NCBI RefSeq assembly: GCF_963675165.1
Contig: NC_087387.1
Location: 2,221,501 to 2,285,500 of the forward strand
Reading direction: 5' to 3'
DNA from: Halichondria panicea
Lineage: Eukaryota > Porifera > Demospongiae > Suberitida > Halichondriidae
Length of the DNA: 64,000 nt
Shown: in pieces, positions 6,491 to 53,100 of the stretch
Layout of the letters: every line of letters starts with the position of its first letter
Position numbering within the stretch: the first letter of the stretch is position 1
The notes under the pieces: model-generated
Database searches by the model: none
The model's input: the letters and a program-made list of their open reading frames with translations, nothing else
What the model was told of the DNA's origin: nothing
Program-made: the position numbers and the translations under genes

Positions 6491-8596
<2,106 letters not shown>

Positions 8597-19300: not shown

Positions 19301-22300
19301 AGGGACACATTACTTTTGTGTGTATAACTTACGCCCTATCGGTATCATCTCAAATGGTAGAGGATAAGCAAATGAAACATCCTCAGCAGAACCGTATGCA
19401 AACCCCCAGAATGGTATATCACCAGAAAATCGTATATTAAAGTTTCTTTGACCTAAAAATTTAGTAGCTCCTAGCCCTCCTAGCCCACATAGCACTTTTC
19501 CAATGCAATCGATTAAACCCTCAGATGGTGTGAATACATCTCCGTTGACAAGCAATTCTGGAGAGTTTACATCGAAATCACTTCGCCTGAGAGTATAGCT
19601 TAAGGACACAGAAAATGGATCTGACAGACTTGTGAGACTGTACCGAGTGAGATAGGAATCGACAGGTGGTATATACACCATTGAGGGATCGCCGATTGGA
19701 TTTGTGAAGTCCAAATTATCGACTGAACTTCCGAGGGTGTAGCTCATAACTGTAATCGGACGTGTTGACTGGATGCTGCAAAATGTACGACTGTTATCTG
19801 GTGTTTTGCACTCAACGTATTGGCCTCGATTTATAACAGCGGTCATAGACTGACCAAAGCCTGATAGGAGAACTCTTTGACCATTACTACTAGCAGAGAC
19901 TGGCTCACATAGACAGTTCACTTGTATAGAGGCTTCATTGCTGACAGTACCAATTCGATATACCTCACCACTTCGTCGAACATTAAATGGTGCAAGAAGA
20001 AACATATCACCGTACGTTGGGTGTGGTGGAATTTGTTCTACCAGGTAACTGCAAGTTCCATTATTAATAGGAGTTCCACATTGATGGCCACTGAAAACAG
20101 ACAGTGGCTTGTCAGATGTAACGATAGTGCCAGTCAAATCATCAACATTGCTAAGCATCAGAGTATTAAAACGATTTAAATGTAGTCCGTATGTCAATTC
20201 TTCTTGAGAGCGAGTGATAGTGGAGTTTAGGCTCACCCAGGAGGGATGAAGCTGTGTTTGTGATGTTATCACTTGAATACGTGTGTCATCCTGACAGGGT
20301 GTGATAAGAAACTGGCTCTCAAAAGGTCCTCCACCAGACGAGAATACAAAATATTGATAATTGGGTGCTGTTGGAAACTCGACACAGTTAATGGCCATGA
20401 AGGCATCAGCGGAGGAGGCTATGTCATTATTACTGCTGAGAGCATATACGGTGAGCTCATCACTTGGATTATCTGCAGTTATAATCAGTCCTTTTTGTCT
20501 ATCACTTGTATCATTATCGCCGTCACTCTGTACTGATAAGTCTGGTCGTCCGTTACTCACTCCACCAGCTTGTAATTGAATGACTGTGAAATGCCCCCTC
20601 CGTGCTGTGCCAGTACGAGAGAACAATTCATTGTCCGGTGTTACCTCGTTGAATCCAATCAGGTTAGGAAGCCTCGTTTCAATAGTGAAAATAGACACAT
20701 CTTGTTCCGTCGTAATATATAGTGTTATTTTGGACCGTCCAACAACATTTCTCATAAATGCAAGAGCAAATTTATTGCCTCTGGTTTTAGGAGAACTGGA
20801 ATCTGTAGAAATAGATTTCATCACATGAGAGGTACATACTTTGTGACTTCGTGATTTGTACGTTACTTTTTATGCATGGTCGTGATCCCCCTCTGTAACA
20901 GCTAGGTGATATCTTAATTATCGATCTAAATACAGTGGAACCTCCATAAACGGACACCATTGGGGAACAGCCATTTGGCCGTTATAGAGAGGTGGTCTTC
21001 CTTGGGAGATTCCGATTGCCAGCTATTTATGGTCTATGAGTCATTTCTTGCTGCAAATGAATCTTGGAGCTTTGCTAACTGCTCTTTAGCTCATACAAGC
21101 TTTGAAAAGGCTGTAGAGACAAGCTACAGCTAGGTTTTCACGATTGTGCAAAATAATGCTATCTCAGCAATAATTTCTGAGTGTGGCTGTCCGTTCTGGG
21201 AGGTTATTTTCCATTGCTAAAGCTGGTTGGGGACTAGAAAGCTACTCGTTATATGGAGTAGAGAGGTGGTCGCTCCTGAGAGGTTGCTTTACATTGTAGT
21301 TTCAATCCGGACCTGAGCTCTTGGCTGTTATATAGCGTGTGGTTGCTCTTTGGAGGTGGTTGTTAATGGAGGTTCCACTGTACCACCCCATGTCAAACAT
21401 CCTATAATATTATACCCTGGCCTGCATGTATCAATGTCCACAGAAACTAGAACTATAAGTTCTCACTTGGAGTGACCGGCCTAAGTGCACCACAATCTAT
21501 ACCGTATAGTGGGTAATTTTTGTGGATTCGTTAATTTAAATAGCTGATTTTCGTGAGTAAAAATTTCGTTTGCTTTATTACGTGCACTGTAGTGCATGCG
21601 TTGTTAACCACGCCTATGTTTTCATGTGGCAGTAAACTAATGACGTGACAAAAGTATAGGATATACCACACCTAAGAGGAGGATATGTACCCATATATCC
21701 TCCGCTACTGTGGTTACTCCGAGGCGTAGCCGAGGGGTATGTAACCATGGTAGTGGAGGATATATGGGGTGCATATCCTTCGAGTAGGTGTGGCATATCT
21801 GACTTATACCACGTGACCGCAGCACTATAAAAGGACCTCCCCCTAGCAACAATTCAATCCACGATGCAGACTGCAAAAAGAACAAGGCTGTGTGCCGGAT
21901 TTTGCAGCCGTCAAAGAGCTAGTTGAGCAACGTGTTGACTCCTACAGATGCTCAAGAGCTTCGATCACTGGTCCAAGTGTTGACCATTCGACGTCCCTTA
22001 CTGGAGTTGCAAGCTCTTCTTGGATAAAATGCACGAAGCTTAGCCATCTTGTTGGGAGCAGCTTCCGTATTTCTGCCGTCACTTTGAGTCTTAGTACCGT
22101 TAAGCATGGCTCTTTTCTCTTTGCTTACTTTCTTGACAAATTAAAAAACAACTTGAAAACTGTGCATGCCTGGGGCTGCATAATATTTTTCTATATATCT
22201 TACAGCTGTTAACCAATGAAATCAATTAGTGGTGACGTAAGTGTGGTATAACTATAGCTTGCAAGCGCTCAGTTATGTGTTTCATGCATTGCCACTATCA

Positions 22301-25300
22301 ATATTATCATGCATGCAGCAAGTACTGGTAATTGTATAGTCATTCAGTCGACAAGCTTATATAATTATAGGTATATACAGTGTAGGAGATCTAATTTCTA
22401 AGTGTGGAACTTTGCATACATGTACTTGTATATACGACAATTGTACGTATACATGTACAGTGTACTGAAAAATGTAACCAAGTATAATAATTATAATAAA
22501 TACATACCATTAAGCCACAAAATAAGTTTGAAAACATGTGAATGTGTTTGAAAGAAAGCAGCGACTGCTAGGAAATGTTCGTCGATAAATTTTGCACTTG
22601 TTAGAAGTGAAATAGGCATGACTATCCACATACCAGGGCTCTGGATATGACAGACCTAATGGTCTCAATTGGAGTATTATATTGACCCAGTGGATAACAT
22701 TTTAAATAAATAATGCAGCAATTAAACCTACCTTTACATGTCGGCATTGTTCCCAACCATTCACTGTTGTTACACGTCCTATTTTTATTTCCAAGGAGAT
22801 AGTATCCTTGATTACAGGTGTAAGTGGCAACAGTACCATACGGCCTCAGAGGGTAACCATCAAAACTATAGGAGATGTTTCCATTGGACAACGGGAGAAG
22901 ATGATGACACTGACCTGCGTACATTCAAAGGTTAATCAGCAGCATTATACAATTCGATGGAACCATAATCATCTCTAAGTACAATCAACTATCTCTACAT
23001 CAGCACCTTTGGGACCTATGGAAAGCATCCTCTATACATTTAGGTTTCCTGAAGTTCTACTGGAGTGTCTTGATTATAAGAGGTGTCCTAATTTCACTAA
23101 TTTTAGGGGTACCACTGAACATCAATCATAGACTACTATGTATAATCATAATTATACAGTCGACAAGCTAATGAATGGCAGAACTATACAAAAACTGCAA
23201 ACCGTGCAGATAAGAACCTCACTATATATAGAGCTGTAGTAAGTTTTTTGTAAATACTGTTGCTATTTACGAATTGGGGAAAAAGTGTACAAACAAGTGC
23301 AAAAAAATATTAATTTTTGTGAAATGGCTCGAGTACCAAAAATAGACTAAGTATTGGTTATTTTATAGTTATAGTTATAGTTGAGATTGCATGGTTTGAG
23401 TGATATAGGATACAGTTTTACGTACCTTGATCGTCTACAATGGTGATGGTGTATCGTTGTCGTGGTAAATAACAGTTTTCGTTAGCCTCACATTCAACAA
23501 AAATCTCTAATACTTCAACTGGTTCCGGAATGTCATCATCAATTATGGACACAATAAACTGATTATTGGGAGTTGAATTTCCAGCTCTCCATTCCAATTT
23601 ACTACTATTGCCCAGTGTACCTGGAAGTAAACCAGTGGAACCATAGTCCTTTCCTAGAAGAAAAATGATAACAGTAACCACCCTACACGTTTTATTACGC
23701 TCGGGAGACTACAGTCCCTTTGGGCTTTTAAATCCCATACGGACACAACTCACATATAAATTATAGTGTCTAGATATACTACAGATTTAGTGTGAATGTG
23801 CAAGCCTTGCCCTCGAGGCTACTAACTACCGTATAGCGGGTAATTTTCGTGGGGTAAAAAATTCGTTTAACTCGAAAACGGTGATTTTCGTGAGTAAAAA
23901 TTTCGTTTAGTCTCATTGCCTCCACTGCATTAAAATTTCGTGGAGGTCAGCTTGCCCACGAAAATAACGAATTTTTTACCCCACAAAATTACCCGCTATA
24001 CGGTATACAATACAACAAGTTTATTGTACTTGGCAACAGGCTATTCGTTAATTCCATGCTAAAATACCTCCTCAGAGCCATGTATAATAATTATAAGATC
24101 TTCAACTATGTAGTAAGTAATATTTAACAGTACATTGTATTAACACAGAATAATCCTCTTACCTTCTATTGCAGTAATATTTCTAGTGACAACGAAAGCT
24201 CTTGTTCTCAGTGAAGTATCTCCATTTGTTACTCTGAACCCCATATTTACTAGACCCACAGTTTCCATAACGATCATATCTTGAGCTTCAATCCAGGCCA
24301 CTAAAACATTCAAAGAAGTTATTACGGACACGTTTATACGATATAGCTAAAACTTACGTCCTGTTGGTATCATCTCAAACGGTAGAGGGTAAGCATATGA
24401 ATTGTTCGTAGCAAAACCATTTACAAAACCCCAGAATGGTACGTCTCCAGAAAACTTTATATCATGATTTTTTGGGCTTAAGAATCCTGTAGCTCCCTGA
24501 CCGCACGACATCGATCCAAAGCCCTCATTGCAATTGATGGTAGTGAAACCATTAGTCGGTGGGAGTACATCTCCATTGCCAATCAATCCCTCTGTGTTGG
24601 GTTCGTAATAATCTCTTTCCTGGAAAGCATAGCTTAAGAAAGCAAAACGAGAATCTGACAGATTTGTGAGACTGTACCGAGTCAAATAGGAATCAACAGG
24701 TGGTATATAAACCATAGAGAAATACTTGAAAAGTTTATTATAGTTCATTACTGTAACTGGACGCGATGACTGAACGCTGCAAAAGCCTTGGGCCTGTGAT
24801 CTACATTCAATATATTGGCCTTGATTTATAGTAGCAGTGAAAGAGCTACCAGATCCTGAAAGGAGCACTCTATTACTACTCGCAGAGACTGGCTCACAGA
24901 GACAGTTAACCTCAACAGAGGTTTCATTGCTGACAGAGCCTATTTGAAACATTAAAGATATTGATGCAAGAAAGAATAAATCACCGTAAGTTGGATGAGG
25001 TGGAATTTGTTCTACAAGATAACTACTGTCTATTAGAGCGCCACTGAAAACAGATAACGGCTTGTCAGATGTAATGATAGTGCCCGTCAAATCATCCAAA
25101 TTGCTAAGCAACAGAGTATCAAAGCGATTGAAACGCAGTTCGTACAAGGCTTCACCCCGTGGATAAGTTGTATTAACACTTGGACTCACCCAAGAGGAAT
25201 GATGATGCACTTGTGAAGGTCTCACTCGAATAGTTGTCTCATCTTGACAGGGTGTGATGAGAAACTGACTCAGAAAATCACCTCTGCCAGTTACATCTGA

Positions 25301-28300
25301 TGAGAACACGAAATATTGGTAATCTCTTGTCGTTGGAAACTCGACACAGTTAATAGCCATGAAGGCATCAGCGGAGGAGGCCATATTATTATTACTGCTG
25401 ATAGCATATATTGTGAGCTCATCACCTGGATTATCTGCAGTTAAAATCAGTCCCTTTTGTCTATCACTTTCATCAATATTGCCATCAGTTAGTACAAATA
25501 TGCCTGGCTGCTCGTTAACTTCTCCAAAAACAACTTGCAATTCAACAACAGTGAACTCCCCCCTTCGAGCTGTCCCAGGACGAGAGTACAGTCCAGATGA
25601 CGTTTCGCTGAATCCATTTAGGCCTGAAAACTTCGTTTCGATAATGAAATTAGACACCCTTTGTTCAGTCGTAATATATAGCAGTATTTCAGCTCGTTTA
25701 ATACTATTTCCCATAAACGCAAGAGCAAATTTACTACCTCTGGTCTTAAGGACATTTGAATCTGTAAAAAAGAAATAACATAATGAATGTTGCAAGCTGC
25801 GCTGTGCTAATGCCTCTCAGCATATCTTGCTTTGCTTAAAAAGTATGGAGTGTTACAGAAGAGGTAATTGTTATGTTCCGAAATAATTATATGGAATTCC
25901 ATATTAATCTCAAGAGTGTTATAATTATAGAAATGGAAACAGATATAATGAAAGCACCGCAGGTGCTGATGCCTCGGTGGAGATGCCAAAGCTACATAAC
26001 ATAAAGCTACTATAATAGCTTAATTTTATACACATGATGAACATTTTTTATTTGCATGCTGCATGCAAACTCGAAGAGTGGGTAATGATCGACCATGATT
26101 GTTGTTAAAAACGATCGATGCCAAAGTTCAAGTCTAAAATTAATAACTGCCATCAGCAGAGCCTTGCAGCTTTCTTCTCACTCTTGCAGCTACCAATAGC
26201 TAGCGTTCTAGTGCAGAGCTAACTACTAAGTAGAGTAGCAACACTCGGTAAACAAGTTTGGCTACGTGCTCTTCTGAAAAGGCTGCATTGGCATTCCAAG
26301 TAAGCAAAACTAGGCATAACTCGAGAACGAAGCATTATTTTGAAAATCCACGAATTAAAATCCAAGAAAACATGACTAGAAGAAGCCTATAGAAACTCTT
26401 ACTTGCACTTCATTGATCTTTGAGCAGCTGTAGCAGTCTACCACACAGACAGACACACACACAAACACACTACCGTACACCTCGCTTGTGCATGCGCACC
26501 GAGGCATAATTATGGTGGGGCTTGATGAATGTTCAAGGATAGAAGCATATAGATCTAAAGTTTTAAGGAGTATTTTGCGTGCAGAAAAAGGGGTGTATCT
26601 GCAATAGGTTAAAGTTCGCAATTTCTTGTTTCCACGCTTTTTTGTGTTTCCCCTGGCCAATCTTAGCAACCGTTTTACGTTTTTTATCCAGATTCCCTTT
26701 CTTTTTTCAGAACAGAAGTAGTACGTTTCAATAATGAATACATAAGTCGAACATCAAGAAGCAGTACAAGTTAAATATGAGAAGACATGCAGGACTGGAA
26801 TAAACGCATATATACCGTCTTTCTTCTAACTACAGGACCACTTTAATAGTAGAACCAACTGTCAGTTGTGTTCTATTTATGAACCATTTCTAGGTGTTTA
26901 GCTAATTATATAGGCTTGAAACCCATCACCCTTCTTTTGGTGGACAGCCCACACCCATAAGGTCTAATAATAAATCGAAACAAAGTGTACATTTACTGGA
27001 TTTTACATAATTACCTGTCCAGTAGTAGATTAGCTAAATGTCAGACTCAGCTATAGATCTACTTACTGACTTTACTTTTTATACTCGAGACATAGTTTAT
27101 CATTCTCGAAATAACAGCCATGCAATTACAAATTGCCAGCTATTACCGTATAGCGGGTGATTTTTGGGGGGCTAAATATTCGTGGTTGGCAATATTTATC
27201 GTGATTGCTGCACTGCAGGTAAAGGTAGGCAAGGTCGGTTCATTTGTGGGTAAAATATTCGTGGTAAGACCTTCAACCCCGAAAACCACGAATCTTTTGC
27301 CCCAGGCTAAAATTAATTACCCTCTATACGGTATTATTCCCCGCATTACTCCTCAGTTTAAACCTTAAGTACACCCCAGAGTTATCAATCAACGGTACAT
27401 GCATGGTGCTGTTTGGAATGAGGGATGACATTATCTTAATTAAGTTTGTTACAGAGTATGTATCAATTAACAGTGTGCATGAAGCAATAATGGGGTACAT
27501 GAATGGTACTGATTGGAAGAGGGATGAAACAAACTTAACTATTAATGGATATAGTTTCTTCTCAAATTCCTGCAATCTATAAGCACCACTCTATATATGC
27601 TGTGTGTTCTTCGGGGCATGTCAGTTGGTTACTGTCTTTGAATTATGCACGCAACATTCATTAATGTTGCGTGCACGTACAATTTGAATTATTAATTAAG
27701 AGAGGTGAATGGAAAAGGATAATAGGAGAATTCTATGGGAATCAGAGAATAGAATAACAGGAAATGTCTTGAGCATAATCTATAAAGGCCTAACAGTCTG
27801 GGAATGCACTGGATCAGACTGCTGCTTGAAAAAGATGCTTAAAGTTCAAAGTTTATAATTAATGGCTGCTCTGTGCAGCTTAATTTGCAGCTCTTTCCTC
27901 ACTCCTAATCTAACAGATTTTGCTATGCACGTGTTTGAAGAACCTGCAATAGCCATTAATAACTTGAGAACGAAGTAAATCCACCAACGAATAAAATGTA
28001 GCTAAAAGCCTATAATTATCCCTTTACCGGTCAATCGTTTAATTCGGGAAAAGGGTCATCACTTTAGTTTGAATTTGAATTTGTGGGTCAGCCCAACCCA
28101 CCAACTTAGCTTGATTTGATCATTCCAATGAAGACTTGGCTTAGAAGTAGTCTCGAATTCCAGCCTCTTTGCAAGCTAATTTGGGGAGGGCGTGGCCAGA
28201 CTAGCTTAGAAGATGGGCGTGGGTCAATGGTTGTGCACACACACACACACTAACCAGTCGATTATGCCTTGCTGCTTGCCTCGATGGAAGTATGTGTGGC

Positions 28301-36316: not shown

Positions 36317-37118
36317 TACGGTGGCCCTGAGCGCTACTCTAGTTGGTAGTTCATACTTGATAGTTCAAATGCGTAGTTGGTAGTTCGCAGTTGCTACTTG
36401 ATAGTTCAAATGCGTAGTTGGTAGTTCGCAGTTGCTACTTGATAGTTCAAACACGTAGTTGGCAGTTGGCAGTTGGTAGTTGGCAGTTGGCAGTTGGGAG
36501 TTGGCAGTTGGGAGTTGGTAGTTGGGAGTTGGCAGTTGGTAGTTGGGAGTTGGAAGTTGGCAGTTCGTAACCTTTAAACTTTGCAACAATAATTAGCCTG
36601 CTTTTAAATTATGATACTGGCACAGATATCTAGTTGGCCTAAGACAGCAATATTAAATCTTATATGTACACATCTAGGTAGGGAGATCATTTCAAGTCTA
36701 ATCCTCATGTACCTATATTCCCAGATCCCAGCAGGGAGGGGGGAATTATAGAAACAGGTTTTGCATGGCACTTTTAGATTCTATTGAGGCTATTTAAAGT
36801 TATGGTTAAAAGATTAGAGGCAGTGCAAAGATATATCTATATACAACATTTGCTAACTGCAAAGTTTAAAGGTCACGAGCTATATACCAACTGCCAACTC
36901 CCAACTGCGAACTACCAACTACCAACTGCCAACTGCCAACTACCAACTACCAACTGCCAACTGCGAACTACAACTGCCAACTCCCAACTGCGAACTACCA
37001 ACTACCAACTGCCAACTGCCAACTACCAACTGCCAACTGCCAACTACCAACTGCCAACTGCGAACTCCCAACTGCTAACTGCCAACTACCAACTGGAGTA
37101 GCACTCAGGGCCACCGTA
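36317..37118. mobile_element. inverted-repeat element built from a 7-bp minisatellite, copy 1
   Basis: Ends TACGGTGGCCCTGAGCGCTA and its mirror (GCACTCAGGGCCACCGTA). Inside the left end is an array of AGTTGGN heptamers (to about 36570); inside the right end is the same array in inverse (CCAACTN, about 36886-37100). A unique middle begins GTAACCTTTAAACTTTGCAA. The flanks on both sides read CTGACT. The long frames in the arrays are translated repeats. Confidence 0.75.
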
Positions 37119-38090
37119 CTGACTCCTATATAGTTGATAGTTCATACTTGATATTTCAAATGCGTAGTTGGTAGTTTGCAGTTGCTACTAGATAGTTCAA
37201 ATGCGTAGTTGGCAGTCGGTAGTTGGCAGTTGGCAGTTGGCAGTTGGTAGTTGGCAGTTGGTAGTTGGGAGTTGGCAGTTGGGAGTTGGAAGTTGGAAGT
37301 TGGCAGTTGGGAGTTGGTAGTTGACAGTTGGGAGTTGGTAGTTGGTAGTTGTCAGTTGGGAGTTGGTAGTTGTCAGTTGGTAGTTGGTAGTTGTCAGTTG
37401 GCAGTTGGGAGTTGGCAGTTGGCAGTTGGGAGTTGGGAGTTGGCAGTTGGGAGTTGGCAGTTGGGAGTTGGCAGTTGGTAGTTGTCAGTTGGTAGTTGTC
37501 AGTTGGTAGTTGGTAGTGGCATGCAGTTGGGAGTTCGTAACCTTTAAACTTTGCAATAGCTTGCTTTTATGTAAGTTAAAATTATGATACTGACACCAAT
37601 AGATATCTAGCTGGAGCCTAAGTCTAAGACGGCAATATTAATCTTTACATGTTATATGTACACATCTAGGTAGGGAGGTAATTTCAAGTCTAATCCCCAT
37701 GCACCTATATTCCCGGATCCCAGTAGGGAGGGGGGGGGGAGGGCATTATAAAAACAGGTTTTGCATGGCACTCTTAATTAAGGCCATTTAAAGTTATGGT
37801 TAAAAAATTAGAGGCAGTGCAAAGATCTACATACAACATTTGCTAACTGGCGTAGAAGATATAGTCTTTACTGGCCTCAGACGGCACTAATGTGTGTCCA
37901 CTAATTAAGTAGGGCTTGTACCCATCAATGAAAGCTTAGAGAAACAGGTTTTGTAGAATAATTCCTGGCATTAGTTTGTTGCGAAGTTTAAAGGTCACGA
38001 ACTACCAACTGCCAACTACCAACTACCAACCACCAACTGCCAACTATCACTGCCAACTACCAACTAGGAGCAGCACTCAAGGCCACCGTA
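37119..38090. mobile_element. inverted-repeat element built from a 7-bp minisatellite, copy 2
   Basis: Direct tandem neighbour of copy 1 with the same layout: AGTTGGN heptamer array (about 37200-37530), a middle homologous to copy 1 (AACCTTTAAACTTTGCAA, GCATGGCACT, GAGGCAGTGCAAAGAT), a short inverse array (about 37998-38066) and the right end AGGCCACCGTA. Its left terminus is not a clean TIR, suggesting tandem duplication or nested insertion. Confidence 0.7.
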
Positions 38091-41575: not shown

Positions 41576-42554
41576 GTTTGCCGTACCTTGTTGAGTTGGC
41601 CGCTGTCCGTGGAGCGACATGACATGTACTGTATATAGCTAGGTACTTAACTACGTATAAAGCATTTGATCCTACACCACCTTGGCAGTGGTTTGCTATA
41701 CCCTGCCATTGTTGAGTTTGCCATACTCTGTTGCTATTTGTTGAGTTTGCCATACTCATACTCTTATCTGTTTGAGTCCATGCAGCGACATGATCATTAT
41801 AGGTATTGTCTATACAGGTATACGAATAAAGCATCTATATGCACGTACATAGGCTTACTCTGTTGCTATGTTGATTTTGCCATACTCTGTTGCTACTTGT
41901 TGAGTTTGCCATACTCTCCATGCAGCGACATGATATAATTTATTAATTTATTGTCTATAGCTACACTGTCTATAGCTACACTGAGCATGAGGTACGTATA
42001 AGGCATGGTTAGCGACTATATGTATTGATCCTACACCACCTTGGCAGTCAATTGTGCCCCTGATTTTTCACATTCATATTAGAATGGAGAGGGGTTATCG
42101 ACGCGCCAGCTGCGGTGGTGTCTAAGTAACTTTTGGCTAAAGGCTTAGGTGTTCTGTACCTGCCAACTGAGGGGGGGGGGTCCATGGCCGATGACCGGGC
42201 ACTAATCGGTAGAGAGAATTGGTAGACAGAAGATGAATGAATGAATGAATGATGGACGTCTGATATGCTCACAAAGTGACTGCTAATAGTTCTGAGACTG
42301 CCACGAGGCTTCAACTTTAGTGCACATGCGTTGAGATGAGTGACGTCATTGCGGCCTGCTCCTTGTTGTTAACCCCATTTAATATGCTATTAAATTCCAT
42401 TTATAGACTACATCGCCGCATGCGCACCGAGGCATAACAAGTGCTCTGCTTGTGGGAGTGGCTAGGCATTGTAAGGGAAGCCAACACAATTACGTGACTG
42501 GTTTTCACTGCGTGTGTTTGATAGCACTCTAGTCTAGCTATATAGCTGAAAGAA
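41576..42554. other. intergenic; caspase gene 5' flank
   Basis: More degenerate TTGAGTTTGCCATACTC repeats to about 41920, an ATGA run near 42236-42254, and a family A end (GCATGCGCACCGAGGCATAA) at about 42419-42438. No exon. Confidence 0.4.
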
Positions 42555-43347
42555 ATGATGCAGTATGGTGCTCTTTCAGAAGGAGATATATGTGTGAGGA
42601 GGACTATTGACGAGAACCCTGTGGCCAAAGGGCTGGCCATTGTAGTAGCTAGTCAGGAGAGCCGAGCCTTTCCCAATGCTATTCTCGAAGGAGTCACGAT
42701 TGATTTTCAGAATACCTGCTCAGCTTTTAGATTATTAAGATATGCTGTACTGCCATTGCTGAATGCCACTGAAAAGATGATTACAGATGTTGTCCAAGCT
42801 GTCCCGAAATGCTTTCCCATATGTGGTGATAACGATCCTCGATACAAGCGAATTGTATTTTATTTTGCTGGGCATGGAGACAATAATGTTCAAGTTCATA
42901 CACATGATGGAGAAATTAATGTAGATCGAAAAATTATTTGGCCTCTCTTGCCAGAAAACTGTCCAAATTTGAGGCACATACCGAAATTGTTTTTCATTGA
43001 TGCGTGTCGTGGTGAAGGTACAGATATAGCCATACCTAGAGGAGGGGGTAATATCTTTTCTCGTGTGTCAGGTATGGCTAACTACCTTGTCGTGCGGTCC
43101 ACTTTGCCGACTATGAAAGCATTCGAGCAAAGCAATCGTCGTGGAGGTTTTTGGACTCAGGCGTTTGTAGAGCAGCTTATTAGCCCAACCAATAAAGGAA
43201 GGGATATTGGGTACATTCTCATTGAGATAAACCGTCAGGTGAATAGGTTATTCAACTCCCAAAATGTTCTGTGCACTCAACAAGCGATTACTGAGAGCAC
43301 ACTCCTTGATCACGTCTTCTTCCTGGATGAAGCTCAGGAGCTTGAAG
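42555..43347 (+). CDS. caspase catalytic exon
   Basis: Single exon holding the whole protease. The p20-like part begins KGLAIVVASQES (residue about 25). The His sits in an AGHG context, as in paracaspases and metacaspases, and the Cys in DACRG, close to the animal caspase QACRG. A possible interdomain cleavage region is GEGTDIAIPRGG. The p10-like part ends with LDHVFFLDE. Two ATGs are adjacent (42555 and 42558). Read on without splicing, the frame stops at 43358; the GAAG/GTACAG donor lies at 43347/43348. Confidence 0.9.
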
Positions 43348-46300
43348 GTACAGAATAATTGGAGCTTTGGTGATCACAGTTCAATCCATTGTGCATTGTA
43401 TTTCAGAACTGGCAAGTACAGCATACACTTGGAGCAGTTGTCAGCCTGGTTTGCCTGGTAAGTGTATGTTACTGCATGTGTCAGTGCATGAGCACACATA
43501 TTTACGTGATCGTATACAGTGTATTAATAGAATTAACCTGGTTTGTTTCATACCAGTAGGTTCGCATTCAGCTGGCTCCATTCCTGGTGCATTCCCACCT
43601 CCAGCATTTTACAGAGGTATATTATAGAGGCAAATCCTTTTAATGAGTTATATAGTTATTGACAAGAATGGATCGTAGGCCGGTATCTGGAGATTAATTA
43701 ATTAAGCTAGTGCATGTTTTAATTTCCCCAATACAGGTCTATTTGGGTCTACAGCCTCAGAACTGCCTACGTCCTTCTCTCTACCAGCAAGAGTTATACC
43801 GAGTGCTGCAGCAGTAGCGAGTGGAACCTCTGAAATAGTGAATCCTTTGGTACTAGTATCAGACCCAGTGTCCCAGTCTGATGCTATAGAAGATGTCATG
43901 TCACAATTACAGGAAGGTACGTATACTGAAGTTATTCTTTCCCTCTACCCAAAGTAGACTAAGCTCATACACATTCATGCCCAATCAATTTATAAACATG
44001 CTGCCTCAATTCTGCATGGATTACTATAATAGTTTTAGCAGACACAAAATAATTATACTGGCACACAACAGACTACTATAGCCTGTGGCCGCCTATTATG
44101 TGGCTTGGGTTAATAGAGCTATTGGTACAAGTAAAGTGCTGTAGGTACCGTGTATGCTTGATCAGGAGCCGCGGCTACTAACTGTTTCATTTTACTGGAA
44201 GAGGAGGCTACAATTCGAGAGAGGCCACTGTTCAAGAGCGACGTTTATTAGCTCTAGTTTGTCATCAAAAGTTATTTTCACCTGCAAAAACTTGAACTCT
44301 GCATGCCATGAGAAAGTCTTTGTGAAACACTAACAAGCAGTATCTAGTATAGTACATGTAGCTAGCTGCTAGTGTTAATAATAACTTTTTCTGGCTGCCA
44401 CGTGCAAAAATGCTAGAGTCAAAGTTCACTGAAGCTACTATTTGAGAGCGGCTACTAAATGGTTCATTTTGCTAGCAAAGGAGGCTACTATATGAGAGCG
44501 GCCTCTGATCGAGCGTATACGGTACTTTAATTACCCTGTGCGGGCATTGCGCGCAGCAGGGGTAGAGTGATTGGTGTGTGGACACAAATATGAGCTGTTT
44601 GAGCAAAATATACACTTTTATGGATTGCTGTATATAACTGCTAATGTGGCAGTGGTTGAAAAATAATAGGCTACTTATAGTAGGAACTTGTAGGCGATCT
44701 TCAAAGGCGACAAAAAACACTGTGTTCTAATCGTTGCTTTATGATTCACGATAATTTCCCATAATGAAGTCATTACAGTAAAACGTTATCGTATCCGTTT
44801 TGCCGCTGTGCGATGAAGCTCAACGCACAAGGTGAATGCTCTATTAGTATATCTTGTTTCTGGACCAATTGCCTCGAGGCGTCGCCGCGCACGAAGGGTA
44901 CGGTAAAGCTGACTGTGTGTGTGTGTGTGTATTCCAGCTGTAACTGCTCAACGGTTGTAATGCAGCGAAAACTAACCGCTTCTATAGGCTTCTAGCCACG
45001 TTCTCATGGATTTTATTCGTGGATAAGCGCTAGCTTTTTGTTAGGTACAAGAGTCAGAAAAGAGCTGTACTGCCAGAGTGCAGCAGCCGTTGCGAACGTT
45101 AGCGGATACGCCCCTTTTTCTGCACATGCACATTCAATCTCACGTGTGTGAGATCCTGACACGTGAGATCCTGAAACAAAATACAATTCTTTTCGTGGGG
45201 TTCTGGTAAGCCACGAAACACGTACTACAATTCTTGTTACCATGTAGATACACAACTCTTTCTTAAACCCCTTTCTCATTGACAGGAAATCAGGGTGTCA
45301 TACAGGATTTTGAAGTAGAGGGGGGAAATAAGAAAAGTAACCAGAAAATTTTGCTAAAAAAAGGTCAACTGTTATTTCATAGTATGTAAAATTGCCAGCT
45401 ATGGACCCTCAGTCAGCAAAAAAGGGGGGGGAAATTGGAGATAGGGGGGGGATATCCCCCCTTTCCCCCCTGTATTACACCCTGGAAATGTGAACTTTTA
45501 CATTGTAAATCTACATGTTCCTATGTTTCCATTAATTAAGCTCCTCTCCTATATATAAAGACTGTGTGGTGTGAACAAATTGCAATCAACAATAATAACG
45601 TAACATATACAAAGCAACCTCTTCTATAGCACTCCTAATAGTTTTTGAGCGAAAGAAAAACATGGCGAGAGCCATTACTCACCGCAATAGCACAGTGAAT
45701 TTGAGAATCGATGTATACAAGTCTAGCCTCATTCCCGGCCCTCTTTTCTCTAATAGGTTAAAAAGAGGGCCTGGTACCAATAGTGCGCATGCGCTTCAAA
45801 TTACCCAGAATATGCATGTGGAATCGTACTATGACCGTAAAACCTTAGTAAATGAATGCACCGCAGGTGCTGATGCCTCAGTAGAGGTGCCAAAGCTACA
45901 TAATATATAAAGATGAATTTGACGAACATGTTTTGCAATTTTGCTGCATGCAGGAACCACAGGGAACTCAGAGAGTGGGTAATGATTGTTGTTAAAAACG
46001 GTCGATGCCAAAATTTCAAGCCTAAGATTAATCCGGGCTGCATCAGTAGAGCCTTGTGGCTCTCTCTCTTAAGCTCACTGTTGCAGCTACCAATAGCTAG
46101 CGTTCTAGTGCAGAGCTAACTACTAACTAGAGTAGCAACACTCCATGGACAAGTTTTGCTACGCACTCTTCTGAAAAGGCTGCAATGGCATTCCAAGTAA
46201 GCAAAACTAGGCGTAACTCGAGAACGAAGCATTATTTTGCAAATCCAAGTAAACATGACTAGAAGCCTATAGAAACTCTTGCTTGCACTTGATTGATCCT

Positions 46301-47604
46301 TGAGCAGCTGTAGCAGTCTACACACACACGCATGCACACTCATGCACACACGCACACACTACCGTGTACCTCGCTTACGCATGCACACCGAGGCATAATT
46401 ATACGGTAGACTAGTCCGTTTACTAACAATATGTTCCATAATACTTTATGTTCATGACTGAGCTGTGAAGCTGTGGCTTAAACCATCTATTGCGTTGGTC
46501 TAGAAGGCTTGAACACTAGTCTGAGACAGAAGAGGCTCTCATCTACGTCTACGATGGTCCCATAGCCGGGTTGTCTGTCTTCGTAAGTAGCAGTTAGGAA
46601 GCACTATACACTTCCTGTAGCCTGTACAGATCCAAGCTACCTGACTACACAGCCATCACAGAGGTAGATGAAAGCCTTCTAGAACAATGCAATAGAAAGC
46701 TAAACTGCTTTACATAGATAGAAAAATAGATTAAAGAAAGAGAAAGGGGATTGAGTAAATTAACGCATGTGCACTATCGCACATGTAATAGGTACATAGG
46801 CCGTGTTATTTCCCCTTCCTGCATGTCTAGCTATTAGAAAAAAATCGGGACCGAGGCTAATACAAGTCTTACGTGTATAGTGCTGATAAGCTAGGAAAGT
46901 CTTGTGCTGTCATGTGTGCCAAATAAGATTAGTAGTTATTTTACATCTATACTGCCCCTCCTCCCTCCCTCCCCCGGCCATATAGTATGGCCACCCTGTT
47001 CTTTACACTGGGGAAAACGCTGATCTTAACAACTCTCTAATATAAATTTGTAACATATCGTATAGGCCCTGATCAGGAATTGGAAATATCTCCATTTGAA
47101 AATTATCCTCGAAGTACAACAATACCCGGTCATTATAAACAGAAAGTTAACCGTTTCTTCCAAGAGAACGGTATTAACCCCACATATGAATATCTATATG
47201 GCAGTGAAACTGGTCCCACTCAATACCGATGCACCGTACGCTACACAATATGCGGAGAATCCAAAGAAGTCGATAGTGTACATTACTACTTGAGCAAAGG
47301 AGATGCTAAAGAACAAGTTGCTAAGCTGGTACTTGAGAGAGAAAATGTTGCACCAATAGTCAGTAAAGGAATCAGTCCACCTTCCAACAAGATATGGAAG
47401 TCTAAACTGAAGGAATATTGTGACAAGAACAAGGTTGTCCTCCCTTCTTATTGCACCGTTCCAACTGAAAATGGGTTCAAATCGACGTTCACGTTGTTTG
47501 GTCAAGATATTAAAGGAAAAGAGTGTAAGAGCAAACAAGAAGCTGAACAGAATGTGGCCCACCAAGCATGGCTGAGTCTTGAACATAATAATGAGTACAC
47601 GTAA
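42555..47604 (+). CDS. caspase with two C-terminal double-stranded-RNA-binding domains
   Basis: Five exons (42555-43347, 43407-43457, 43557-43616, 43737-43916, 47066-47604) give 540 residues. Exon 1 is a peptidase C14 caspase fold. p20 has the catalytic His in VFYFAGHGD (about residue 102) and the Cys in FFIDACRG (about residue 152). p10 has YLVVRSTLPT and GGFWTQAFVEQL. There is no prodomain. Three small exons form a Ser/Ala/Pro-rich linker. Exon 5 carries two dsRBD-like domains. The second (KSKLKEYCDKNKVVLPSY, FKSTFTLFGQ, KSKQEAEQNVAHQAW) is canonical; the first is more diverged. All four junctions are GT-AG in phase 1, which supports one gene, but the last intron is 3.1 kb and the join is inferred. 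A dsRNA-activated death protease is a reasonable guess. Confidence 0.72.
44146..44524. mobile_element. inverted-repeat element, TACCGTGTATGC family
   Basis: Left TACCGTGTATGCTTGATCAG is mirrored by right GATCGAGCGTATACGGTA. Inside are direct repeats of GGCTACTAACTGTTTCATTT and AGGAGGCTACTATATGAGAG types. It shares only the TACCGT tips with the TACCGTATA family. Confidence 0.65.
45291..45484. mobile_element. CAGGG-ended element with 5-bp duplication GAAAT
   Basis: CAGGGTGTCATACAGG at the left is mirrored by CCTGTATTACACCCTG at the right. GAAAT precedes and follows the element, a 5-bp target duplication. The interior has G-rich and C-rich runs. hAT5-like by inference. Confidence 0.8.
45850..46398 (+). 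repeat. dispersed repeat family A, copy 5
   Basis: CACCGCAGGTGCTGATGCCT, GAGAGTGGGTAATGATTGTT, CAGCTACCAATAGCTAGCG, GGCGTAACTCGAGAACGAAG, TTGAGCAGCTGTAGCAGTCT, and the end GCATGCACACCGAGGCATAA, collinear with copy 1 at 25955. Confidence 0.8.
46487..46695. mobile_element. short inverted-repeat element
   Basis: CTATTGCGTTGGTCTAGAAG and GCTT at the left are mirrored by AAGCCTTCTAGAACAATGCA and ATAG at the right. No coding content. Confidence 0.6.
47066..47604 (+). CDS. exon encoding two dsRNA-binding domains
   Basis: The acceptor ATCGTATAG at 47065 leaves phase 1, matching the donor at 43916. Domain 1 (about 47128-47335): YKQKVNRFFQENGINPTYEY, GPTQYRCTVRYTICGES, then GDAKEQVAKLVLE, which keeps the helix-strand-helix order but lacks the basic KK of strong binders. 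Domain 2 (about 47392-47580) has PSYCTV, FKSTFTLFG and KSKQEAEQNVA, where the KSKQEAE basic helix is the typical dsRNA contact. The stop is at 47602-47604. If not part of the caspase gene, a start at the ATG 47080 would give a 174-residue dsRBD protein. Confidence 0.85.
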
Positions 47605-49690
47605 TTATAGGCACACAAATAGCTAGCGCGGACTCAACACATTATGACACCAGTACCGGTATATTTATTTTATATAGCTGCTATAGGAATCCAAACTGTA
47701 TTACTCATTATTGTCATTAATAAAAGTGTGTGTATAGACTATATATTCTGCTAGAAAATATTTGTGTTATTCTTTTAACAACCATCATGGTCGATCATTC
47801 CACACCATGGTCAATGACTGTAAAATTGTATTCGATTTACATGTACATGTATGTATATATTTAAGGCTTTGTTTTTTCCAATTTTATCGAATAACATTAT
47901 TGTAATAATTATACCCCCCCGGCCCACGCAGTCGAATTATTATTGTATGCTGTAAGGTATGCATGCATGTGAGTATAATACTATGTAAATGGAGATCAGA
48001 CCGAGGCTGTGGAGAAACATTTCTGAATCTACGTATACTGGAAAACTGGTGTGTTTTGTCTCGTATATCTCTGCTCAAACTGGTTAATTGTTTGTTGGCA
48101 TAATACGTATCTGTGACAATTTCCATGACGGTATATATATTATTTGTTTTGAAAATAGCTCTGCAGATGTTCAACACCGTATTGTTACAATGTTGTTTTG
48201 CGAGTGAACAACCTTTTTTTAATGTGCGAAATCCACTGTTAAGCGAATATGGTGGTGGACATCACTTTAGAATGATTGAAATCCTCAAGCTACATGTAGC
48301 GATATAGACAAAATTTGGATATAATTATGCTGTAGTACTACAGCATGTACTATAGCGCCTATATGCTCTTCGTATGTTTGAGCAGCTGTATATATGTAGT
48401 CTATATACACACACCAGAGGAGGTCCAACATGCGTGCACGAATCACTAAAAGTTTAGCATTGATGTCATTACGGTCACATAATAACATGCAGGCCACAAT
48501 GCACTGAACTTATAGTGATTCGTGCACGCATATCGGACCTCCTCTGTACACGCACACTAGCTTGCGCATGCGCACAAGCGTGCGTGTGTGTGTGATACCG
48601 AGGCAATAATTATGATTCTGAGCAATATTAAACATTACAAACGACCTCTACCATAATTCCGAGCTAGGCGAGGTTATGTTTGGGTCTAGCCTCATTCCCG
48701 GCCCGACTTTTCTCGACTTGAACGATACTATCATAATAGCCTCGATCCCAGGCGCTTTAGTGAAAAGTGTGTATCAAGACTCTCGCGACTGCATCAGAGA
48801 AATATTTCAGGCTATCTATCTAACACAAGGCATCACCATGCACCTCATGCAATTATGGGCTTTTAAACTTGTGATAATAATAAATTAAACTAACCTCAAG
48901 GTTTGTTTATTATTGTACAAAAGAGCAAGTGCCCTCTATAATGTTTGAAACCTTGATTATCCAGCTTGACAATTTTTAGGGGTGTGTCCCTTAAATGCGC
49001 ATGTGCATTGCAGCTGTTACCATGGAGACAGGCCTGCTCATCTTCTGTGCATGCGCAGACAACCATGTGGGACTGCTATTTATCAATTAAGTGGGTGGAT
49101 CAAGGCGTGATTTATCTATTCGATTATCCATTGTCTGGCCTGCCACTGGAACCAAGGTGTCCGGATGATCGAAGTTCTACTGTATATATATAGACACAAC
49201 AAAAATAATTGTTAATCAATTATGTGTCACGTACTCTAGTAATCAATTATATATTGCCGGAATCCGGGCAAGATCAACTGGTTACCTGAGGCGCGTGTGG
49301 GCAGGCGGCCACGGGTATAGTATAGCCGGTTGGTTTGTCTGTCTGTTTGAGCCTGCTCACCTGGATGCCACGCACACCATGTCAATTGATCTCTGAGATC
49401 AAAGTGCCACGATGCACTGTATTGCCTATGAATATCCGTATCAGTAAATTATTGGCGTTTGGCCAGCTTTTGGTAACCACATGCAGCTCATAATTAGATT
49501 AGATTACACATCCCACATAGCTGACGGTACATAATTTAATACCTTTGGGTTCCTTAGTCTAGTTAGCATAAAATTATAGCTGGAGCTAGAGAGTTAAGTA
49601 GTAGTCTACATAGACAGGGTGAAGTTAGCTAGCCTAGACCTGTAGTTTATATAATTTATTGATATTATAGCAGTATAGCTGGTGTACGGT
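47605..49690. other. intergenic between the caspase-dsRBD and CARD-like genes
   Basis: Contains the element at 48415-48549, a family A end at about 48560-48615 (GCGCATGCGCACAAGC, CCGAGGCAATAATTAT), a TAGCCTCATTCCCGGCC palindrome-family piece at about 48689, and a pogo-like end (GATCGAAGTTCTACTGTA) near 49165-49183. No exon recognised. Confidence 0.45.
48415..48549. mobile_element. short inverted-repeat element with probable 9-bp duplication
   Basis: CAGAGGAGGTCCAACATGCG and TGCACGAATCACTAAAAGTT are mirrored by the right half ending CGGACCTCCTCTG. Flanks TACACACAC and TACACGCAC match at 8 of 9 positions. A lone end occurs near 15905. Confidence 0.75.
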
Positions 49691-50137
49691 ATGGATCAGC
49701 CAAAAGCTAACTTCGTACAAACAAGATTTGAAAAACTTTTGAAACATTATGACATCAACGATTTTACCCGGTTTCTTGCCAAAAAGGAGTTCCTGCCTAG
49801 ATCTACGTATGAACTGAAATTTCTACCCAGTGGTAAATCTGCCCCCAAACAGGAAATCATTAGCTCTCTACTGTCTCATGTGTCTAGTAGAGACCAATTT
49901 GCAAGTGGCCTCTTGGACATTTTTTGTCAGTACACTGAATTTGTCTCAGAAGATGTGGCCTTGACACTTTCTGAAATACCCTCAGCTAGAAAGGTGGCCC
50001 TGACACTTTCTAAAACACCCTCAACTAAGAAGCACTTTTCACACAACAAAAAAGGATCCGATTCTGACTCGTGTTCGTCATCGTCATTCTCTGATGATTC
50101 TGACCCTTGCCAGCCCAGCCAAGAGTGTCCAACTACT
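49691..50137 (+). CDS. N-terminal CARD/DED-like exon
   Basis: ATG 49691 opens a 149-codon exon ending in phase 0 before GTAAGT. About 75 residues of alternating hydrophobic helices (RFEKLLKHYDINDFTRFL, EIISSLLSHV, FASGLLDIFCQYTEF) fit a death-fold domain; whether CARD or DED is unclear. A short repeat follows (EDVALTLSEIPSARK, then KVALTLSKTPSTKK), then a Ser/Asp-rich tract (DSDSCSSSSFSDDSD). Confidence 0.7.
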
Positions 50138-53100
50138 GTAAGTCTGACACAACCATGCACAGGACTTCACTATTGTATTGTTAGTAGATCATATATACCT
50201 CAGTGTAAGTATACTAAAGTATATTTGCGTTAAGTTCGGCCCCGGAAGTCATGTGGTCAATTATGGCTTCATTTATGCGCCTTTATGTGGTTGACAAGTA
50301 AGGACTTTTACTAACTTTTAGCTGGTTGAAGGTTATCAGCTCTACAGCATATACCGTAAAGTTAGAAATTTATGCGGCCCAAAAATTCTGTAAATCCTGC
50401 GAATGAATGAGTAAACGCAGAAATATTATCCGCAAATGCCTATTAACCATGCCTACTTTAAAGTTTAATTCGCAGAAATAGTATCCGCAGAATGTCTTTT
50501 TACAGCTAATCACAGAATTTTGGAGGCGCAGAAATGCAGTCTAGCTATACGGTAGATAGAAACAATTTTTAACAAGGAATCCATGACAAAGTTATGACAA
50601 CATTTATATGAAGGTCAATCTCAACAATATACTTTATTTAGTCTAGGTCTCATGGCTATATTATAACCTCTCAAAGTAAATCACATCATACAGTAAAGGG
50701 ATTGGAAACGGAAGCACCCTCAAAGTATCATTTGTGTATCCCTGAATCGAGGCTTACTTTTAACGTGGAAGGCTAACATAAATTTCATGAGAATTGCATG
50801 TTTTACTACCTGTAAAAAGTCCATAAGCAGTTCCGCTGCTAAACATAAATACCTTAATCACCTTATATTTGAGGACACAGCACTAGTTACTTAGTTATAC
50901 GGCTTTCAATAGCTATCCTTATATATACAAGCATGAAGAAGCGCTCTGCGTACCTCTAACTACTTCACAACAAGATTATGATACTCACCATCAAGAGACA
51001 TAACTAGAGCACTAAAGTGCAAACCCTCGGCTGTTGACGTGATAATAAAGAAACCAGAAGAGTGATAATGCAGTGCATGTAGCATGTATGAATAGCAGAG
51101 CACAGCAACTCAAGAGCAATAAAACTAAACTAACAACGTACATGCATGAGACATGCACTATGGACTGGGATCACAGCAAAGAAGCCTGGAGTCTTCTAGA
51201 CTAAGAGAAGTATGGCTCCTTCCAGGCTGGAGTACGTATAGGATCCAGAGTCAGTCAACAACCAGTCACAATTCTACTTTCTTGACAATTGTTCCTGGTA
51301 CGGGATCACTTCAGCTGAAAATACATAATCAAGCCTTGACTACGTATTTTCAGCTGAAGTGATTCCGTACCTTGACTCAAGGCCACGTGGCAAGTTTAAG
51401 CTTCTTAGCTTTTGCTCGCTTTTACTCGACAAAGAAGCTTTAACATCAAAATCTGCCACTATTTAAACCAAGATATTGTTGTGTGAAGACTACCTATGCT
51501 GCAAACGCAGTGCTATGGCATCCAGGTGAGTAGATATACTCGTTACAAACAAACAAACAAACAAACTAGAGCACTAAAGTGCAAACCCTCGGCTGGTGAC
51601 ATGATTATAAAGAAACCAGAAATATAATGCAGTGCATATAGTGATGTTGTTATCATGTATGACTTGCACAGCAACTCAGGAGCAATAAAACTAAACCAGA
51701 CTGGAGGCATGCTGAGAACAGGTAGTGGTAGACTACTATAGATGATATGCACTGTGGATTAGGATCACAGTAAAGAAGCCTGGAGTCTCAGAGAAGTATA
51801 GCTCCAGGTTCTGCATGGAGTAGGATCCCAGTCAGCAGCAGGAGCTATAATTCAAGCTCCTACTTTAGTGACCCTGTTCCATTGTTCCTGGTATATACAG
51901 CTTTCTACTTTAGTGACCCTGTTCCATCGTTCTTGGTACAGGATCACTTCAGTTATAAGTAACGCATGTGCAAGTTCTGTTCCAGCTACATTTTGCTCGC
52001 TTTTATTAGACAAAGGAGCTTTAACACCGAAAGCTGCCACTATCAAAAGTACTAACTTGTTGTGTGGAGGCTACTCATGCTGTAAACGCAGTGCTAGAGC
52101 ATCCAGGTAAGCAGACCTAGTCACAAGCTTATTCAAGCTTCTTAGCTTTTGCTCGACAAAGAAGCTTTAACAGCAAAATCTGCCACTATTTAAATCAAGA
52201 TATTGTTGTGTGAAGGCTATCCATGCTGTAAACGCAGTGCTGTGGCATCCAGGTGAGTAGATATACCTATGACAAACAAACAAACAGACAAACAAACAAA
52301 CCTAGAGCACTAAAGTGCAAACCCTCGGCTGGTACATGGTGACATGATTAAAAAGAAACCAGAAATATAATGCAGTGCATATAGTGATGTTGTTATCATC
52401 ATGTATGACTTGCACAGCAACTCAGGAGCAATAAAACTAAACCAGACTGGAGGCATGCTGAAACATTTGAGAACAGGTAGTGGTACTATAGATATATGCA
52501 CTATGGATTAGGATCACAGTAAAGAAGCCTGGAGTCTCAGAGAAGTATGGCTCCAGGTTCTGCATGGAGTAGGATCCCAGTCAGCAGCAGGAGCTATATT
52601 TCAAGCTTCTACTTTAGTGACCCTGTTCCATTGTTCCTGGTATATACAGCTTTCTACTTTAGTGACCCTGTTCCATCGTTTTCTTGGTACAGGATCACTT
52701 CAGTTATAAGTAACGCATGTGCAAGTTCTGTTCAAGCTACATTTTGCTCGCTTTTATTAGACAAAGGAGCTTTAACACGGAAAGCTGTCACTATCAAAAG
52801 TACTAACTTGTTGTGTGGAGGCTACTCATGCTGTAAACGCAGTGCTAGAGCATCCAGGTAAGCAGACCTAGTCACAAGCTTATTCAAGCTTCTTAGCTTT
52901 TGCTCGACAAAGAAGCTTTAACAGCAAAATCTGCCACTATTTAAATCAAGATATTGTTGTGTGAAGGCTATCCATGCTGTAAACGCAGTGATGTGGCATC
53001 CAGGTGAGTAGATATACCTGTGACAAACAAACAAACAAACAAACTAGAGCACTAAAGTGCAAACCCTCGGCTGGTGACATGATTATAAAGAAACCATATA

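Follow-up and report, generated by a model that had tools for sequence, protein, structure and literature searches.

Does a single sponge gene join a caspase-like protease to double-stranded RNA-binding domains (dsRBDs) and, if so, what would the protein cut, and in response to what? The question is raised by a locus of Halichondria panicea in a 64,000-nucleotide stretch of genomic DNA (C11:2221501-2285500), which we call the window, where an exon with caspase motifs is followed on the same strand by an exon with two dsRBDs.

Gene model and predicted protein

The first-pass annotation of this DNA proposed five phase-compatible exons with a total length divisible by three, and this is what we find. 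Joined, the exons in Table 1 make 1620 nt and 539 residues, the sole stop codon is the terminal one, and all four introns have GT...AG ends. All four are in phase 1, because exons 2 to 4 measure 51, 57, and 180 nt. The predicted donors are, in order, AAG/gtacag, CTG/gtaagt, GAG/gtatat, and AAG/gtacgt, and the acceptors end in tgtatttcag, cataccagtag, ccaatacag, and cgtatag. An in-frame stop (42543-42545) is found 9 nt 5′ of the exon 1 ATG, and a poly-A signal AATAAA is found at 47719, 3′ of exon 5. Exon 3 has an alternative acceptor AG 3 bases upstream, for which the frame is likewise open. Readthrough into intron 1 stops after 3 codons, therefore caspase-only isoforms would be possible.

Table 1. 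Features of the predicted gene, in coordinates counted from the first nucleotide of the window.
Feature	Position	Strand	Basis or remark
Exon 1	42555..43347	+	Encodes both subunits of the C14 catalytic domain; donor AAG/gtacag; Pfam E 2.6e-19
Leu44	42684..42686	+	At the place of caspase-3 Arg64 (P1-Asp pocket)
Catalytic His107 (AGHGD)	42873..42875	+	Alignment to caspase-3
Asp149	42999..43001	+	At the place of caspase-3 Gln161 and MALT1 Asp462; alignments; PMC4357240
Catalytic Cys151 (DACRG)	43005..43007	+	Alignment to caspase-3
Arg162-Gly-Gly, proposed self-cleavage site	43038..43046	+	Between catalytic Cys and second subunit; putative role
Glu191	43125..43127	+	At the place of caspase-3 Arg207 and MALT1 Glu500; alignments; PMC4357240
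Exon 2, linker	43407..43457	+	Splice consensus tgtatttcag/ and CTG/gtaagt, phase 1
Exon 3, Pro-rich linker	43560..43616	+	Frame read from sequence
Exon 4, linker	43737..43916	+	3′ end DAIEDVMSQLQEG similar to end of extra dsRBD-like exon of C16 gene a
Intron 4	43917..47065	+	3.1 kb; inverted repeats and one repeat common to C16 region
Exon 5, two dsRBDs and stop codon	47066..47604	+	Acceptor cgtatag/GCC; Pfam; blastn to C16 gene b
dsRBD 1	47134..47337	+	dsrm alone 21.9 bits, E 2.7e-4, just below cut-off of 23
dsRBD 2	47395..47580	+	Covers dsrm profile 1-66 of 66

Exon 1 has a Peptidase_C14 domain (Pfam 70.3 bits, E 2.6e-19, cut-off 21.4), and the two caspase motifs noticed at first pass, AGHGD and DACRG, are both in it. 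The HG and the DACRG align to caspase-3, and a caspase fold with the His/Cys dyad is present. A single-sequence structure prediction of this exon has pLDDT 34 and pTM 0.33. The linker that follows the caspase domain and leads to the dsRBDs is Pro/Ser-rich, and Pfam finds no CARD, DED, Death, or Ig domain in exon 1, in exon 5, or in the joined linkers of exons 2 to 4. Exon 4 is similar to an extra dsRBD-like exon in a paralogue on contig C16 (gene a, see below; tblastn E 0.65, weak, at the position expected), and it is perhaps a worn-down dsRBD remnant, perhaps the end of an older dsRBD.

Exon 5 matches the dsrm profile (PF00035) in two stretches, at 57.4 bits and E 2.2e-15 (cut-off 23). The helix-2 motif by which dsRBDs contact RNA normally has three lysines, with PKR as the reference. 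Compared with this motif, the helix of dsRBD 1 (SKGDAK) keeps two of the three contact lysines, and that of dsRBD 2 reads SKQEAE. A GP loop can also be read in the sequence of dsRBD 1. In the domain around KSKQEAEQNVA (dsRBD 2), which had been called canonical, the helix is missing two of the three usual lysines. A phage search with exon 5 produced no match; in bacteria, a single weak relative came up, in a planctomycete (L061; identity 34%, residues 89-158 of the query).

Elsewhere in the window, we observe a 560-residue open frame (6914-8596) with an N-terminus that by eye is coiled-coil/B-box-like, and a histone-fold C-terminus, which is histone H4-like by eye and matches Pfam TAF above cut-off and Histone below it (22.4 bits). 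Three tandem IgGFc_binding (PF17517) paralogues, all far above cut-off, lie on the minus strand (16183-17790, 19310-20869, and 24347-25816), and tandem repeats with a QLPTAN-like translation occupy 36365-37566. Just downstream of the caspase-dsRBD gene, a 184-residue ORF (49679-50233) appears helical and death-fold-like by eye; neither Pfam nor a comparison with solved structures gives a credible match for it (best E 0.46 for the structures).

One gene or two: the evidence of paralogues

The same exons could also be read as a pair of neighboring genes: a caspase gene that stops within or beyond exons 2 to 4, and a dsRBD gene copied alongside it. Intron 4, which is 3.1 kb long and has repeats, counts in favor of this reading. 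We searched the whole genome (131 Mb, 39 contigs) and counted exon matches, so the counts of places are lower bounds: at least 33 for Peptidase_C14 and at least 12 for dsrm. From 12 dsrm places in 131 Mb, itself a lower bound, about 0.0005 are expected within 10 kb downstream of a given gene and on the same strand. Because so few are expected, and because the arrangement recurs in paralogues, the adjacency of caspase and dsRBD is not due to chance.

Apart from exon 5 itself, the search lists at least three related exons, each on the minus strand of C16. Two of them end predicted genes that we read from open frames, without annotation. Gene a has, in order, a caspase exon, a linker, an extra dsRBD-like exon, and an exon with one dsRBD; gene b has a caspase, a linker, an extra dsRBD-like exon, another linker, and an exon with two dsRBDs. 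These are tandem paralogues with a caspase-linker-dsRBD order like that of the window gene. The extra exons have no Pfam match, and in the best shuffle test 13 of 2000 shuffles (a) and 3 of 2000 (b) scored as well. After gene b comes a third copy, consisting of a linker and a two-dsRBD exon, for which a caspase was not found.

As a separate observation on C16 (L047/L048, C16:4365001-4384000, reverse strand 12715-15151), a Death-domain-like exon is upstream of a linker and a two-dsRBD exon, and no caspase was found between them. The Pfam match of this exon is below cut-off (15 bits, E 0.028), and a shorter piece has no match at E 0.1. The locus is possibly a Death-dsRBD adaptor partner.

The caspase closest to that of the window, at 60% identity, is another C16 gene (C16:3868381, L035/L051), and it is followed on the same strand, after about 3.3 kb, by a dsRBD-like exon of its own. 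A profile built only from the dsRBD 2 of the window and of C16 finds this exon at E 1.6e-4 among 2331 ORFs, and none of 2000 shuffles equals it against each of the three dsRBD 2 sequences. A profile of other dsRBDs from the same genome misses it, a mixed profile gives E 0.27, and it is unlike dsRBD 1 (197-563 of 2000 shuffles are as good). It has no dsrm Pfam match, and its match to Dicer_dimer (E 0.0039) is below cut-off. Since only the dsRBD 2-specific profile detects it, we take this exon for kin of the window-type dsRBD 2 and not for a textbook dsRBD.

Two more C16 caspases, at C16:4282792 and C16:4278195 (L028 and L029), have dsRBD-like exons downstream that are below significance (E 0.026, 0.071, and 2.2; best shuffle counts 51, 338, and 16 of 2000), so that their linkage is suggestive. 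When we speak of six dsRBD-linked sequences, we mean four firm ones and these two. As a control, we scanned with the dsRBD profile downstream of eight C14 loci outside the family (L052 and L054-L060), and the best E-values were 0.74 to 10 with one exception, a 41-residue ORF at L059 (E 0.028 over 22 residues), which we judged to be a chance match and rejected as a dsRBD.

The edges of the exons are also informative. The blastn similarity of exon 5 to gene b reaches back into the acceptor, to 47063, and similarity to the other two C16 copies starts at 47117 and 47083; by eye, the TAG acceptor aligns with all three. The introns of the window gene and those of the C16 copies cannot be aligned, save one repeat in intron 4, and the DNA similarity of exon 1 to L051 spans 42613-43340 and ends seven bases before the donor. 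Also in favor of two genes, the dsRBD exon is much nearer to C16 than the caspase exon is (dS 0.56 vs. 2.27 or saturated), so that exon has moved. Against two genes, the 5′ edge of the dsRBD exon is a conserved phase-1 acceptor and lacks a start codon, a dsRBD exon also follows the closest caspase paralogue, and genes a and b repeat the order of the window gene. We regard two separate genes as very improbable. That the caspase and dsRBD exons form one gene, as first proposed, is strongly supported by the paralogues and by the acceptor site that the dsRBD exons have in common; judged from sequence, it is nearly certain.

How then did the dsRBD exon move? Between the window and the C16 copies, the dsRBD exon is 72-74% identical over 151 codons (dN 0.16-0.17), and the caspase exon about 30% (29-34%). 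Because the dsRBD exons are so much closer than the caspase exons, the dsRBD exon has probably been swapped between family members, an exchange that introns of the same phase would permit. Genes a and b have caspases 84% identical and dsRBD 1 only about 50%, and the caspase exon of the window compared with that of L035 has dN 0.30 and dS 1.88 (near saturation). In a tree of C14 sequences, ten ordinary caspases together with L025 split off (98/98); a single origin of the six dsRBD-linked sequences appears in 17% of 200 bootstrap trees, and the dsRBD-linked label needs 2 changes.

About 90 kb upstream, from C11:2174498 onward (L062, C11:2173500-2180500), there is a copy of exons 1-4 that has decayed: it contains many stop codons, its exon 4 is interrupted by an insertion, and it aligns to 42527-44106. 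This copy might suggest that the window gene is itself decaying or a pseudogene, but its 539 codons are free of stops, its catalytic dyad is kept, and dN is well below dS, all of which makes decay extremely improbable.

The low dN of the dsRBD exon indicates purifying selection. Some dsRBDs are protein binders only. The dsRBDs might instead guide the protease to RNA or RNA-protein partners such as the RNAi, editing, or translation machinery, where it would act locally or as a regulator without sensing foreign RNA. The dsRBD 2 helix, which is not lysine-rich, agrees with this, and so do the very divergent dsRBD-like domains of L035, L028, and L029: three of the four divergent domains tested match best the Dicer dimerisation domain and the fourth DND1_DSRM, all weakly and below cut-off. 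(Genome-wide, the Dicer_dimer Pfam profile has two places among the matches listed, both on C15.) Against it, dsRBD 1 retains SKGDAK and the GP loop, and the dsRBD exon is kept by selection. We consider partner targeting unlikely, and a dsRNA-sensing protease the best reading of the sequence.

Substrate pocket and proposed mechanism

Which residue would such a protease cut after? We aligned 21 C14 sequences of this genome, the six dsRBD-linked ones and 15 others; the comparison leaves aside L021 and L024 (equal to L020 and L023), the fragments L032, L033, L037, L039, L041, and L042, the distant L038, and three unlocated C14 places. The caspase-3 row has R64, Q161, and R207 at the pocket positions, and alignments to solved caspases set the pocket residues opposite one another just as the genome alignment does. 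The pocket is Leu/Asp/Glu in all six dsRBD-linked sequences (4/4 counting firm genes only), and of the 15 others 10 have Arg/Gln/Arg, 1 has Arg/Gln/Ser, 2 have Leu/Asp/Ser, and 2 have Leu/Asp/Gly. The pocket Asp by itself is not specific to the family, because four other sequences have it with Ser or Gly as the third residue.

Among the remaining caspase-like genes, L052 and L053/L054 (C8:3183000-3192900 and 3210000-3229000) have a Leu/Asp/Ser pocket and are followed by an exon that by eye is TIR-like. On C11, two pairs of identical caspase ORFs lie 9.7 kb apart (1829250/1838950 and 1834783/1844483), either a recent duplication or an assembly duplicate. Outside the C14 proteases, the genome has at least 47 Peptidase_C1 places; in the three that we read as silicatein candidates, the Cys is of the cathepsin type.

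According to the account of these pockets in PMC4357240, caspase-7 holds aspartate with Arg87, Gln184, and Arg233, and MALT1 has Asp365, Asp462, and Glu500 in similar positions of an arginine-binding pocket. Asp50 of the window protein matches MALT1 Asp365 by spacing, yet caspase-3 also has an Asp there, and the first pocket residue is Leu. A Leu/Asp/Glu pocket should be unsuited to aspartate and might accept arginine or lysine, and we predict that the P1 specificity of the dsRBD-linked enzymes may be basic. Overall, the sequence is closer to caspases than to MALT1. A profile of the family p20 scores human caspase-3 at 59.3 bits, human MALT1 at 16.2, and the genome's own MALT1-type exon (L032) at 19.9, and among the best 60 structures listed the closest solved ones are animal caspases (caspase-3 and insect caspase-1; best E 1.2e-32 with the family profile).

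The first-pass description of a death-family caspase is right as to fold and sequence, and not as to the aspartate pocket, which has been replaced by a partly acidic one; with that pocket gone, neither aspartate cleavage nor a classical apoptotic cascade is to be assumed. A dsRNA-switched protease that retains aspartate specificity and acts through the usual caspase cascade, the reading nearest to the first proposal, would fit the overall likeness to animal caspases rather than MALT1. It has against it that the three aspartate-holding residues are all replaced in 6/6 members, two of them by acids, and we find it improbable.

A second feature goes together with this pocket. An [RK]GG motif, searched within 85 residues of the active-site motif, is present between the catalytic Cys and the second subunit in 6/6 dsRBD-linked sequences (4/4 firm) vs. 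0/15 other C14 sequences. In five of these six, [RK]GG recurs elsewhere in the searched stretch, and MAFFT puts the motif Arg/Lys of the window protein (Arg162) and of L035 one column before that of the other four.

We propose the following mechanism. The C-terminal pair of dsRBDs, on its flexible linker, would gather several copies of the protein along a long dsRNA, for instance a viral one, and this clustering would force the N-terminal caspase-fold domains into dimers. Self-cleavage of the linker at Arg-Gly-Gly would follow, and the dimer would then cleave targets after basic residues, leading to cell death or immune signalling. To a single-gene alarm protease with all of these properties (dsRNA-responsive, activated as a dimer, self-cutting, and specific for basic residues) we give about an even chance. 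The lack of the usual contact lysines in dsRBD 2 and the possible caspase-only isoforms count against it. More tentatively, and at somewhat less than even chance, the family may be a caspase lineage in which aspartate specificity gave way to a MALT1-like basic-P1 pocket, in which Arg/Lys self-cleavage arose, and which came to be switched directly by dsRNA through exchangeable C-terminal dsRBD modules.

If this is true, an animal couples viral RNA sensing to proteolysis in one protein whose cleavage code is the reverse of the caspase one; P1 specificity can change in enzymes of the caspase lineage; and dsRBD-caspase fusions have more than one architecture. The predicted change of specificity is unexpected and easily tested, as one purified protein is enough to compare dsRNA dependence and Arg vs. 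Asp substrates.

Comparison with known systems

In PKR, two dsRBDs are joined to an enzyme whose presumed mode of activation is dimerisation on dsRNA. The window protein also joins two dsRBDs to an enzyme, with a protease in place of the kinase and the domain order reversed. With caspase-3 and insect caspase-1 it has the His/Cys dyad in common; unlike them, it has lost the Arg/Gln/Arg pocket and adds C-terminal dsRBDs. MALT1, as described in PMC4357240, resembles the window family in two pocket residues close to the P1 arginine, an Asp and a Glu; it differs by an Ig domain, of which none is found in the window exons tested, and the genome has its MALT1-type exon elsewhere.

The combination of caspase and dsRBDs, unfamiliar to the first-pass annotation, had in fact been published. 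The oyster Crassostrea gigas has Cg3C-like A and B, with two DSRM in the prodomain, a domain stated there in 2021 to be previously unreported in any caspase, and its authors suggest that the two proteins are a viral detector (PMC7836458). A figure legend in a mussel paper also has DSRM among the domain combinations of caspases (PMC10967218). In the sponge Amphimedon, large expansions of TRADD-N and Death-like domains are described, and the word dsRBD is absent from the available text of that paper (PMC8195603). A C-terminal dsRBD caspase, or a sponge dsRBD caspase, is in no title or abstract among the matches listed in our literature search, and one may already have been published, or a relative annotated.

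Like the window protein, the oyster proteins combine a caspase domain with two dsRNA-binding motifs, and their genes are duplicates (PMC7836458). They differ in the place of the DSRMs, which form part of the prodomain in these enzymes, classed with the executioners (3C); those of the window protein are C-terminal and in a separate last exon. In the window gene and its paralogues the catalytic exon comes first and the dsRBD exons after it, and the oyster-type N-terminal placement is absent. The Leu/Asp/Glu pocket is here set beside oyster caspases known by domain description only. What appears to be new relative to the published oyster prodomain form, as far as sequence can tell, is the C-terminal placement of the dsRBDs together with the inverted pocket.
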